DNA of 64,000 nucleotides, taken from Agrobacterium salinitolerans (GTDB lineage: Bacteria; Pseudomonadota; Alphaproteobacteria; Rhizobiales; Rhizobiaceae). How positions within the stretch are numbered: the stretch's first letter is position 1; each line of letters begins with the position of its first letter. The position numbers were made by a program, and so were the translations under genes. The notes below the pieces were generated by a model that ran no database searches, was not told where the DNA came from, and was given only the letters and a program-made list of their open reading frames with translations. Shown in pieces: positions 15,231 to 53,084 of the stretch. The stretch is from positions 1 through 64,000 of the forward strand of contig NZ_MRDH01000006.1 of NCBI RefSeq assembly GCF_002008225.1, written 5' to 3'.

Positions 15231-15304
15231 GTCATCCTCGCCCTTGAGGCGAGGATCCACAGGCGGTTGAAGCGATGGATCCTCGGGTCAGGCCCGAGGA
15301 TGAC
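15231..15304. repeat. Two-hairpin palindromic repeat element (gene-less)
   Basis: Two 28-base units in inverted orientation. The left unit begins GTCATCCTCG and folds as ATCCTCGCC-cttga-GGCGAGGAT. The right unit ends CGAGGATGAC and folds as ATCCTCGGG-tcagg-CCCGAGGAT. An 18-base spacer separates them. Each is a 9-bp stem with a 5-nt loop. The architecture equals the boundaries of the GIY-YIG cassette at 48091-48515, but without a gene. Confidence 0.85.
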
Positions 15305-42993: not shown

Positions 42994-44115
42994 GTGGGCG
43001 AGGTCAAAACGGCAATCGGGCTGATGAGCGGCACATCGATGGACGGCATCGATATCGCCCTTTTGTGCACGGATGGCGAGAGCGTGGTGCGGCATGGGCC
43101 GAGCGGTTATTTCCCCTATGATCCGGGTCTGCGTGCCATCTGGCAGAAGGCGCTCACGACGGCCAAATCCATTCGCGAGCGGCGCGAACGTCCCGGCGAT
43201 CTGGCGGAGGCTGAGCGCAAGCTGACGCTTGCCCATGCGGCGGCGGTGAAATCCTTTCTCCATCGTCACCGGCTCCAGCCCGGTGATATCGATGTCATCG
43301 GTTTTCATGGCCAGACGGTGCTGCACCGGCCGGATGAGGCGCTGACCGTGCAGATCGGCGACGGCGCGCTTCTGGCTGAGGAAACCGGTATCGATGTGGT
43401 TTATGACATGCGTGCCAACGACATGGTGCATGGCGGGCAGGGTGCGCCGCTGATCCCCGCCTATCATATGGCACTTTCCGCCAACCTGCCTGAAGGCTTC
43501 GAAACGCCCGCCGTCTTCGTCAATATTGGGGGGATCTCCAATCTGACCTATATTGGCGAGGGTAGGCGGCTTGCTGCCTTCGACAGCGGGCCGGGCAATA
43601 TGCTGATCGACCAGTGGATCGAGGCGCATACCGGCGAAGCGTTCGACAAGGGCGGCAGGACGGCGGCGGGTGGCAGCGTCGTTGGCTCGTTGGTGGCGCG
43701 TTATATGGAAAGCCCGTTTTTTTCGGCCAATATCCGTCGGTCGCTTGACCGCGGTGATTTTGTGCCGCCGAAAAAAGGTGAGGTTTCTCTTGCGGATGGG
43801 GCACGGACGCTGGCGCATCTGACAGGTGCTGCCATTCTGAAATCGGCGAGCTATCTGCCGGAGGCGGCGAAAACCTATGTGGTTTGCGGTGGTGGGCGGC
43901 TCAACCCGGTGATCATGGGAGAATTTGCCGAGCTTGCAGCAAAGTCGGGTGCGCGGGTGATCGCGGCGGAGGAGGCGGGTTTTGATGGCGGGGCGATGGA
44001 GGCGGAGGCCTGGGCCTATCTGGCCGTGCGTTCGCTCAAGGGTTTGCCGCTGACATATCCCGGGACTACGGGGGTGAGCGAGCCGGTGACGGGTGGGGTT
44101 TTGGTGCGGGCGTAG
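42994..44115 (+). CDS. anmK: Anhydro-N-acetylmuramic acid kinase
   Basis: A 373-residue ASKHA-fold kinase that hydrolyses and phosphorylates 1,6-anhydro-MurNAc during peptidoglycan recycling. '[18 protein letters not shown]' is the N-terminal phosphate-binding loop; '[12 protein letters not shown]', '[10 protein letters not shown]' and '[13 protein letters not shown]' are further family blocks, and '[13 protein letters not shown]' the adenosine motif. GTG start with AGGGGAG upstream. Divergent from tyrS, and close to other wall genes (M23 peptidase) in this window. Confidence 0.97.
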
Positions 44116-44116
44116 T

Positions 44117-44313
44117 GATCGACGGCGGGTGTGGCTCACCCCCCTCTGCCCTGCCGGGCATCTCCCCCTCAAGGGGGGAGATCGAATCGTGGCGACCTTC
44201 CGGCCATCTTTAACGTATAAGCTTGGGCGAGGAGCAGGCGTCTGGCTGATCTCCCCCCTTGAGGGGGAGATGCCCGGCAGGGCAGAGGGGGTGAGCCACA
44301 CCCACCGTCGATC
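44117..44313. repeat. Large inverted repeat (about 66-bp arms)
   Basis: Left arm 44117-44183 and right arm 44248-44313 are near-perfect reverse complements (one substitution and small length differences in C/G runs), with a 64-base centre. Arms contain CTCCCCCTCAAGGGGGGAG-type palindromes. It lies between anmK and the hydrolase gene. A Rhizobiaceae-type intergenic palindromic element; no ORF inside. Confidence 0.85.
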
Positions 44314-44355
44314 ATTAGCGATAAATCAAGACGTGCGCTAGAAATGCGCCGCCAA

Positions 44356-46414: not shown

Positions 46415-46612
46415 AATGCGGCAAAGAATTGCGGAATAGCAATTTTCCGCTTGCCGGGATGTGTGAAAAGCGCCATCCCGCACTTACATGGGTATAAGCT
46501 CCGCCCCGTTTAACGGCTCGGAACGATTTGCCCGAAGATGAATAAGGCGGCTTTCCGCCTTGATACGTTGACAAGCCACCGGACCTTGGCTCCGGCGAGA
46601 TTGGAGAACGAC

Positions 46613-48082
<1,470 letters not shown>

Positions 48083-48090
48083 GTCTTCCT

Positions 48091-48515
48091 CGTCATCCTC
48101 GGGCTTGTCCCGAGGATCTGCTGTCGCGGGATGCGGAGATGAGCGGTGTCGTTTACATGATGTCCGATAAACCGCGCGGTGTGATCTATACTGGCGTCAC
48201 CAGCGACCTGCCGGGAAGGGTTTATGAACACCGCACCACGTTGCATAAGGGTTACACCGAGAAATACAGGGCAAAGAACCTCGTCTGGTTTGAAACCCAC
48301 CCCAATATCGTGCTGGCAATCCAGCGGGAGAAATCATTGAAGCGTTACATGCGCGAGTGGAAAATTCGGTTGATCGAAGAATTAAATCCGACCTGGTTGG
48401 ACCTTTACGAGCGCATAAACGAAATCGGCAACGCCTATCGGCCGCATGAAAATACGCGGAAGTGGGGCGACTATAATTGACGTGATTAGATCCTCGGGAC
48501 AAGCCCGAGGATGAC
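48091..48515. mobile_element. Palindrome-bounded GIY-YIG cassette inserted between sufB and sufC
   Basis: Perfect 28-bp inverted repeats at 48091-48118 and 48488-48515 (beginning GTCATCCTCGGG, ending CCCGAGGATGAC) enclose one GIY-YIG gene. Each end folds as a 9-bp hairpin with a 5-nt loop. It lies wholly in the sufB-sufC gap, leaving both frames intact. The same hairpin pair without the gene occurs at 15231-15304. I read it as a mobile or formerly mobile REP/MITE-like element. Confidence 0.7.
48139..48480 (+). CDS. GIY-YIG nuclease family protein (UPF0213/UvrC-like domain)
   Basis: A 113-residue single-domain GIY-YIG protein. The hallmark is 'VVYMMSDKPRGVIYTGVTSDLPGRVYEHR' (VYM and IYTG for the two tyrosine motifs, Arg in the next helix), then 'YTEKYRAKNLVWFE' and 'REKSLKRYMREWKIRLI', with a Glu-containing alpha helix. 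Such stand-alone proteins cleave DNA in some systems. It sits between palindromes and is co-oriented with suf genes, but is unlikely to be part of SufBCD assembly. GGAG lies near the ATG. Confidence 0.88.
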   Translation: MSGVVYMMSDKPRGVIYTGVTSDLPGRVYEHRTTLHKGYTEKYRAKNLVWFETHPNIVLAIQREKSLKRYMREWKIRLIEELNPTWLDLYERINEIGNAYRPHENTRKWGDYN

Positions 48516-48594
48516 GGATGCAAAAGTTGAGGCAGGCCCGTAACAGGGCTTACGAGGCGGTCCTTGAAACCGCAATACGGATAGGAACTAAAAC

Positions 48595-49350
48595 ATGCTT
48601 GAAATCATCGACCTGCACGCAAAGATCGCCGATACCGAAACAGAGATCATCAAGGGCCTCAACCTGAAGGTTGCCGCTGGTGAAGTTGCCGCCATCATGG
48701 GGCCGAACGGTTCCGGCAAATCGACGCTCTCCTACATCCTGTCGGGCCGTGAGGACTACGAAGTCACCTCCGGTGACATTCTCTATAACGGCGAGAGCAT
48801 TCTGGAACTGGACGCCGCCGAGCGCGCTGCCAAGGGTATTTTCCTGGCCTTCCAGTATCCGGTCGAAATTCCGGGCGTTGCGACGATGCAATTCCTGAAG
48901 GTTGCGATGAACGAGCAGCGCAAGGCGCGTGGCGAGTCCGAGCTGACGACGCCGGACTTCATCCGCCGCGTCAAGGAAGCTGCCGGCGACCTGAAGATCG
49001 ACATGGAGATGCTGAAGCGTCCGCTGAATGTCGGTTTCTCCGGTGGTGAGAAGAAGCGCGCTGAAATCCTGCAGATGGCGCTGCTTGAGCCGAAACTCTG
49101 CGTTCTCGACGAAACCGATAGCGGTCTCGACATCGACGCGCTGAAGATCGTGGCTGACGGCGTCAACGCGCTGAAGTCGCCGGATCGCGCCACCGTCGTC
49201 ATCACCCACTATCAGCGCCTGCTCGACTACATCGTGCCTGACAGCGTTCACGTTCTCTACAAGGGCAAGATCATCCGCTCGGGTGACAAGGCGCTGGCGC
49301 TGGAGCTGGAAAACAACGGTTACGCCGACATCATCGGTGAAGCGGCCTAA
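48595..49350 (+). CDS. sufC: Fe-S assembly ATPase SufC
   Basis: A 251-residue ABC-type ATPase driving SufBCD. Walker A 'MGPNGSGKSTLSYIL', ABC signature 'GFSGGEKKRAEILQMALLEP', Walker B 'LCVLDETDSGLDIDALK' and H-loop 'VVITHYQRLLDYI' are intact. It follows the inserted cassette by about 80 bases and precedes sufD by 24 bases. Cytosolic. Confidence 0.98.
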   Translation: MLEIIDLHAKIADTETEIIKGLNLKVAAGEVAAIMGPNGSGKSTLSYILSGREDYEVTSGDILYNGESILELDAAERAAKGIFLAFQYPVEIPGVATMQFLKVAMNEQRKARGESELTTPDFIRRVKEAAGDLKIDMEMLKRPLNVGFSGGEKKRAEILQMALLEPKLCVLDETDSGLDIDALKIVADGVNALKSPDRATVVITHYQRLLDYIVPDSVHVLYKGKIIRSGDKALALELENNGYADIIGEAA

Positions 49351-52805: not shown

Positions 52806-52926
52806 TTTGATGCGGCTGCGCGTCATTTTCGGGCGCGACCAAAAGACCTTTGGCTCTCAACGCCTTGTAAAACCCTCCATATGTTATCACCTTTACCGTG
52901 CTTATAGAGCGAGCGGTTGCCGCTTG

Positions 52927-53049
52927 TTTCTTCTCCCCGCCGGGGAGAAGGTCGCGGCAGCGGGATGAGGGGGCGAGGGTGGTGGGATACGGCAACGTTG
53001 CCCCCTCATCCGACCCTTCGGGCCACCTTCTCCCCGGCGGGGAGAAGAA
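52927..53049. repeat. Palindromic intergenic element with hairpin ends
   Basis: Both ends carry CTTCTCCCCGCCGGGGAGAAG, a 21-bp palindrome, and the arms pair further: left 52927-52974, right 53000-53049, with imperfect stretches, and a GGCAACGTTGCC palindrome in the middle. A Rhizobiaceae-type repeat, distinct from those at 44117 and 48091. It occupies most of the sufA-macB gap. Confidence 0.8.
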
Positions 53050-53084
53050 ATATGCCGCTACGTGGTGCGAAGCTGATTACATTT

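Follow-up and report, generated by a model that had tools for sequence, protein, structure and literature searches.

A GIY-YIG nuclease gene between CGTC REPs in the suf operon of Agrobacterium and the association of its family with tagged hairpins across Pseudomonadota

Background

The closest described arrangement is the REP-RAYT system. According to the sections of PMC8266576 that treat it, it shares with the unit reported below a nuclease gene flanked by REPs, head-to-head REP pairs throughout the genome and a tetranucleotide tag, and in both cases enzyme and REPs vary together. RAYTs, however, are HUH tyrosine transposases with GTAG REPs, whereas the present unit combines a GIY-YIG nuclease with a CGTC tag; among the REP-RAYT traits it has the flanking by REPs of its own genome, but neither an HUH/Y1 enzyme nor GTAG REPs. 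For TnpAREP, cleavage and recombination in vitro are reported in the same source (PMC8266576), while cleavage by the present nuclease is a prediction. RAYT genes are mostly single-copy, in contrast to one to six family members per genome here.

The repeats themselves have been described before. CGTC REPs, as defined in the 2013 survey by Di Nocera et al. (PMC3733652), carry a CGTC tag (variants CCTC and TGTC), a stem of 8 or 9 bp that starts with AT, and a loop of 4 or 5 nt, and they also occur as dimers in head-to-head order. The survey lists A. tumefaciens CGTC-3 and Neisseria dRS3 as members and equates Neisseria CGTC-1 with dRS3. It found no dedicated transposase for these repeats and left their origin open; the term GIY has zero occurrences in its main text. 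Tens to hundreds of copies are present in many Pseudomonadota genomes.

The CGTC REP superfamily of PMC3733652 thus comes without an enzyme, and the enzyme link is what the present analysis adds. Each component, from the REPs and the GIY-YIG domain to the REPtron concept, was known before. Among the papers listed by full-text searches of an open-access library (preprints excluded), none was found to connect GIY-YIG genes with REP, RAYT, REPIN, or CGTC repeats; in PMC6006769 CGTC occurs once, within a reference.

Results

The cassette in the sufB-sufC gap

The window, i.e., the whole analysed stretch of 64,000 nucleotides (positions 1 to 64,000 of contig NZ_MRDH01000006.1, Agrobacterium salinitolerans assembly GCF_002008225.1), contains a short unit between sufB and sufC (Table 1). 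An earlier note on this DNA had described it as a 113-aa GIY-YIG protein enclosed by complementary 28-bp repeats, each of them a 9-bp hairpin, and inserted without damage to the neighbouring genes. This description holds, except that the two arms are perfect reverse complements over 29 bp, with 368 nt between them. Taken as single-stranded DNA, each arm folds on its own into a 9-bp stem closed by a 5-nt loop (−9.8 kcal/mol, z −4.3, for one and −10.1 kcal/mol, z −5.4, for the other). Read from the tag, the layout is CGTC, stem, loop CTTGT, stem, and CT, and both CGTC tags face outward. A REP pair folded as one hairpin is very stable (−37.8 kcal/mol, z −12.4). The cassette begins 8 bp after the end of sufB and ends 78 bp before the start of sufC, both frames being open. 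Within the sufC leader, a segment of the GAGGCGGTCCTTGAAACCGC type is kept, with variations, in 15 aligned gaps, whether the nuclease gene is present or absent.

Table 1. Positions of the cassette, its neighbours, and a further REP pair in the window
Feature	Coordinates	Strand	Details
sufB, upstream neighbour	46538..48082	+	open frame
5' CGTC-tagged REP	48091..48119	+	tag 48091-48094, stem 48095-48103, loop CTTGT, stem 48109-48117, tail CT
GIY-YIG nuclease gene, 113 aa, single domain	48139..48480	+	Pfam PF01541, alignment, dN/dS
3' REP, exact reverse complement of 5' REP	48488..48516	-	
sufC leader	48517..48594	+	alignment of 15 of 39 gaps
sufC, downstream neighbour	48595..49350	+	open frame
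REP pair elsewhere in window, two head-to-head hairpins, stems differ	15231..15304	.	inverted arms 15231-15259 / 15276-15304

The nuclease

The domain is the sole Pfam match of the protein, with an E-value of 1.9e-11 and 44.6 bits against a curated cut-off of 22.6. Residues Y6, Y17, G19, R27, H31, E64, and N83 are invariant in an alignment of 15 rows (A1), and E64 is nearly invariant (90% or more) in another set of 16 rows. The conserved GIY/YIG tyrosines, arginine, glutamate, and asparagine are presumably the catalytic residues. The family also has a C-terminal signature, R.WK..LIE..NP.W.DL. In a set of 34 rows (two of them with a stop), the gene has a median dN/dS of 0.087, computed from those 92 of the 561 pairs whose dS lies at 0.05-1.2, which is the mark of purifying selection. 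Among the 40 closest copies described below at least six are broken (an internal stop in L028 and L030, broken frames in L038-L041), the frame check having taken in all of them but L035, L037, and L042. Loss of the nuclease gene is therefore also common.

The own genome has two GIY-YIG matches, namely the cassette gene, present in one copy, and a domain within a 681-aa frame, which we take for uvrC. Regarding solved structures, the nearest by sequence are the UPF0213 or small GIY-YIG proteins 1zg2 (E 4.7e-7) and 1ywl (E 6e-4), with UvrC structure 1yd6 next (E 0.004). UPF0213-type proteins are distant, however, and the family here differs from them in its own C-terminal signature and its REP context. 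Two further candidates were rejected. A site-specific homing endonuclease does not suit a bare GIY-YIG domain whose relatives lie at many sites and whose recurrent neighbour is a hairpin, with no target gene. As for known defence or phage families, no PADLOC or PHROG model matched the three proteins searched at E 1e-3.

The hairpins as members of a REP population

The palindromes of the earlier note belong to a described class, the CGTC REPs as defined in PMC3733652, with the tag, stem start, stem and loop lengths, and head-to-head dimers given in that survey. The pattern ATCCTCGGG-N5-CCCGAGGAT with up to 2 mismatches occurs at 99 places in the 4.99-Mb own genome, and the reversed control at 0, so the cassette hairpin is not a product of chance. 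The second hairpin of the pair at the other site in Table 1 is also matched by this pattern, and the pair is a member of the same population. In 17 stretches of the own genome, mostly picked for two close pattern matches and hence giving no estimate of the paired share, 14 hairpin pairs were found. All 14 are head to head, one of them being tagged AGTC; the spacers measure 21-56 nt, and ten of them fall at 29-33 nt. The hairpin is present in all 39 searched genomes of the genus, at 3 to 160 places each.

The tail in the window is CTG, the classic form being near CCA, and other copies in the own genome end in CCA, CTA, or CTG. The tag and the AT-starting stem are present both in the window and in the own genome; the stems of some relatives differ, e.g., GC in Novosphingobium. 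A profile search for Y1_Tnp matched nothing in the own genome and hence turned up no RAYT there; 17 of 151 sampled genomes of the family have a match.

Distribution of the nuclease family

Scanning a species-genome collection with six short peptides yielded 47 loci. The 40 closest (L003-L042) are 58-90% identical and span Rhizobium, Agrobacterium, Roseibium, Pannonibacter, Jiella, and Mesorhizobium; 39 of them lie in the sufB-sufC gap and one (L034) elsewhere, which shows that the cassette is not a recent accident at this site. The remaining seven loci, with 45-53% identity, come from Sphingomonas, Methyloceanibacter, Legionella, and a betaproteobacterial MAG. In L043 and L047-L049 the gene is surrounded by hairpins in inverted order whose stems are of other types; L044 has two different hairpins, L046 has one, and L045 none.

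A match is present in 73 of the 151 family genomes (one in 39 of them, two to five in the others), so the family overall does not follow the strict single-copy habit of RAYTs. Many of these matches align over the first 90-95 residues only and lie at sites other than suf. In the phylum, 102 of 398 sampled genomes have a match, 37 of these outside the class, and up to six members of the nuclease family occur in one genome. Seven records were picked from 32 matches in a plasmid collection, and five of them are flanked by hairpins on both sides (N. gonorrhoeae, N. aromaticivorans pNL2, A. lipoferum, S. meliloti pSymB, and Rhizobium CIAT894); the N. gonorrhoeae gene lies inside an array of ATTCCCGC hairpins. 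Of the other two, R. tumorigenes has hairpins downstream only, and Planktothrix has none. The association is not confined to Rhizobiales, the order that the earlier note had in view, but spans alpha-, beta-, and gammaproteobacteria.

Pairwise distances of the nuclease correlate with those of SufB and SufC at 0.48 and 0.45, respectively, versus 0.74 between SufB and SufC (36 rows), and the Roseibium and Pannonibacter copies are near the Rhizobiaceae ones given the distance of their Suf proteins. This mismatch of sequence distances is a hint that the nuclease gene may have been transferred.

In Azospirillum lipoferum 4B (L337) a distant GIY-YIG relative lies between sufB and sufC, and in L060 and L065 one lies beside both genes. 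The gene thus seems either to have occupied this gap for a very long time or to have settled in it repeatedly.

Association between the gene and tagged hairpins

A profile made from alignment A1 was used to scan 171 loci, 164 of which have a distinct domain sequence and were kept, 159 of them strong matches and five remote ones. The window's own gene (L050 and L186) and two repeated loci (L185 and L187) had been dropped beforehand. Tagged hairpins within 300 bp are present on both sides of the gene in 101 of the 159 loci and on at least one side in 127, and a matched inverted pair with CGTC outward is found in 75. Control ORFs from the same loci, which are longer genes with 150 codons or more between stops (small intergenic genes fall outside this control), show 0/218 on both sides, 35/218 on at least one side, and 0 matched pairs. 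Random placements (n = 3543) gave 28 cases flanked on both sides and 2 matched pairs, and among remote GIY-YIG genes of the same genus 0/5 have a tagged hairpin.

The result does not come from the suf locus alone. When a list of suf loci drawn by hand is removed (L060 and L065, beside sufB and sufC, stayed in), flanking on both sides is seen in 64 of 115. Counted per source, with repeats and remote genes included, the values are 38/47, 21/29, 22/28, 6/20, and 21/47; in the set with 6/20, eight places come from genomes without the ATCCTCGGG REP. With untagged hairpins admitted as well, CGTC, CCTC, or TGTC is present at 274 of the 361 perfect hairpins close to the gene, compared with 38 of 148 hairpins more than 700 bp away, so the tag is no artefact of the search.

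The rule has its exceptions. Fifty-eight of the 159 loci are not flanked on both sides, and 32 have no tagged hairpin at all. In addition, no REP of the searched pattern occurs in 7 of the 68 family genomes that carry the gene, and several of their loci show no clear other hairpin. Overall, the association between the nuclease family and CGTC-type REPs across Pseudomonadota is strong. The parallel to REP-RAYT layout that the earlier note drew for a single cassette thus extends far beyond the suf locus, and homologues at many other sites are flanked by palindromes as well.

Stem type and nuclease clade

In 70 of 97 loci the nearest upstream and downstream stems agree at all 7 nt compared; the mean mismatch is 0.47 versus 1.80 after shuffling. 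Along a FastTree protein tree of 154 rows, the stem labels (29 types, assigned to 123 rows) change 44 times, while the minimum over 200 shuffles is 55. Without the suf set (112 rows, also FastTree) the corresponding values are 42 and 50. The genus tree of 20 rows, in which 11 of 16 inner branches have values under 80, needs 5 changes, whereas shuffled labels need at least 6 and on average 9.3.

In the genus, suf-site and type-A genes go with ATCCTCGGG REPs, a second clade with ATGCCGG (one row ACCCCGG), and a third clade with CCTC-tagged AT(C/T)CCTGTG REPs. Four genomes (G159, G162, G165, and G186) have genes of two clades, each beside its own REP. Phylum genomes from other classes often show CGTC-1 stems (ATTCCCGC). 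The REP stem thus varies with the nuclease clade.

Gene presence and REP number

Presence of the gene goes with more REPs at every level, all counts being made with kinship ignored. In the family, where presence was set at E < 1e-12, the median is 9 REPs in the 68 genomes with the gene, and at least 5 REPs are found in 50/68 (none in 7) versus 17/83 without it (78 with no match and 5 with a weak one). According to the CGTC-1 pattern in the phylum, 40/102 genomes with the gene and 29/296 without it have at least 5 REPs. In the genus the median is 91 REPs in 20 genomes with the gene versus 42 in 19 without it (p 0.002).

REP-rich genomes without the gene, however, occur at all three levels: the 17/83 in the family, the 29/296 in the phylum, several of which are incomplete, and some in the genus with over 80 REPs. 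They fit the proposal made below only if REPs outlast the gene.

Polymorphism and turnover

The earlier note would have been refuted by a cassette present in every relative at this one site with no copy elsewhere, which is not what is seen. Among 39 genus genomes, only 7 have the gene with a REP on each side in the sufB-sufC gap, 8 have a REP pair only (two degenerate), 1 a single REP, 3 a different ORF together with the 3' REP and a remnant similar to the end of the nuclease gene, and 20 no REP (the gap being 75 bp long in 12 of these 20). Cassette, REP pair, and REP-free states therefore alternate between relatives, and the alignment of 15 gaps shows that REP pair and cassette share their outer boundaries. 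At the second cassette site, 7 of the 30 loci examined hold a type-A gene and 1 holds REPs only, the rest having other fillers or just 6 bp. Of 30 loci examined for a REPIN near G000:C37:199.9 kb, 29 could be resolved; 8 of these have the REPIN and 21 lack it.

Eight sufB-sufC gaps (L082, L083, L095, L107, L109, L111, L114, and L117) hold unrelated, possibly coding stretches of 235-699 bp, and the gap thus looks like a general insertion hot spot in the suf operon.

Two genomes that are 98.4% alike over 360 kb allow a closer view of turnover. Five of 13 comparable REP pairs differ in the second genome, by collapse to one hairpin, deletion, or swap for another type, and two more collapses run in the reverse direction. 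At three of those sites a pair corresponds to a single hairpin with a tag or remnant on both sides. We read these differences as quick turnover of REPs. No exact empty junction or clean target-site duplication was seen among the sites compared, and the differences could stem from recombination rather than transposition.

At site 1 of L124 (L215, L217, and L223) the spacer of the REP pair has opposite orientations in different genomes, and others have a CCTC-type pair. Whole REP pairs thus seem to flip in place.

Discussion

Taken together, the unit is probably a REPtron-like cassette of a new type, in which a GIY-YIG gene lies between head-to-head CGTC REPs that populate the genome. Its nuclease family is at present the leading candidate for the enzyme that has been missing from these repeats. 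From this arrangement we infer that the nuclease may cleave and mobilise REPs. Its target would be the CGTC-tagged REP hairpin, folded in single-stranded or cruciform DNA, and it would cut close to the tag; REP pairs set free or broken in this way would then be copied or rejoined elsewhere with the help of host repair. Host repair is invoked because GIY-YIG enzymes hydrolyse DNA and are not known to rejoin it. This hydrolysis proceeds without a covalent intermediate. Strand transfer as described for TnpAREP in PMC8266576 is therefore not expected. The nuclease gene itself would seldom move, and REP pairs (REPINs) would be its non-autonomous dependants. As the earlier note proposed, the hairpins might in addition alter the SufB to SufCDS ratio.

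The main rival is that the nuclease does housekeeping, i.e., it resolves or trims hairpins and cruciforms that hamper replication, and so makes REPs bearable for the cell without spreading them. Such a role agrees with the purifying selection on the gene, the very stable fold of the pair, and the pairs collapsed to single hairpins at three sites of the 98.4% genomes, although the direct repeats in the stems permit collapse through slippage alone. Trimming would not account, however, for the position of the gene between cognate REPs, and REPs are more numerous, rather than scarcer, where the gene is present. Being in line with the collapses but not with the positive link to REP number, this explanation appears unlikely. 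A minimal transposon, with REPs as terminal inverted repeats, the GIY-YIG protein as transposase, and REPINs as MITEs, is a still weaker candidate and seems to us quite improbable. The matched inverted ends, the REP pairs that look like internal deletions at the same site, and the scattering of copies over different sites, with up to 6 members of the family in one genome, are what it would predict. In contrast, the own genome has one gene copy versus 99 REP places, 39 of the 40 closest loci are at one site, and no target duplication was seen; moreover, only 7 of the 171 scanned loci repeat the domain sequence of another, apparently from the same assembly taken twice, this count covering only some of the matches per genome.

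The opposite possibility is that there is no functional link at all, REPs and dispensable small genes merely settling as passengers in tolerant intergenic stretches. The unrelated ORFs in the sufB-sufC gap and the other fillers at the second site do mark both sites as hot spots. But none of the 218 control ORFs (longer genes, 150 codons or more) and none of the five remote GIY-YIG genes is flanked in this way, the stem type tracks the nuclease clade within one genus and even within single genomes, and the link spans several classes, which makes mere co-settlement very improbable indeed.

The REPtron-like reading can be widened. Small GIY-YIG nucleases might be the dedicated mobilising enzymes of CGTC REPs across Pseudomonadota, including Neisseria dRS3; they would have arisen independently of HUH transposases, spread the repeats by cutting and host repair, and co-evolved with the stem. 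We consider the chances of this wider claim to be even. If true, it would mean a REP system independent of HUH transposases, and the same arrangement built twice from unrelated nuclease folds. The origin of CGTC REPs, left open in the defining paper (PMC3733652), also becomes testable with an enzyme family whose substrate is matched to its clade, using one protein and a set of oligonucleotides.

Other repeats in the window

Positions 44113-44317 of the window hold another palindromic element of about 205 bp, with perfect inner arms of 44 bp and outer arms of 31 bp (94%). Elements with the same core occupy the second cassette site in several Agrobacterium genomes without the GIY-YIG gene. Another small intergenic repeat type, a CTTCTCCCCGNCGGGGAGAAG palindrome pair with inverted 40-bp arms (88%), is found at 52916-53061.
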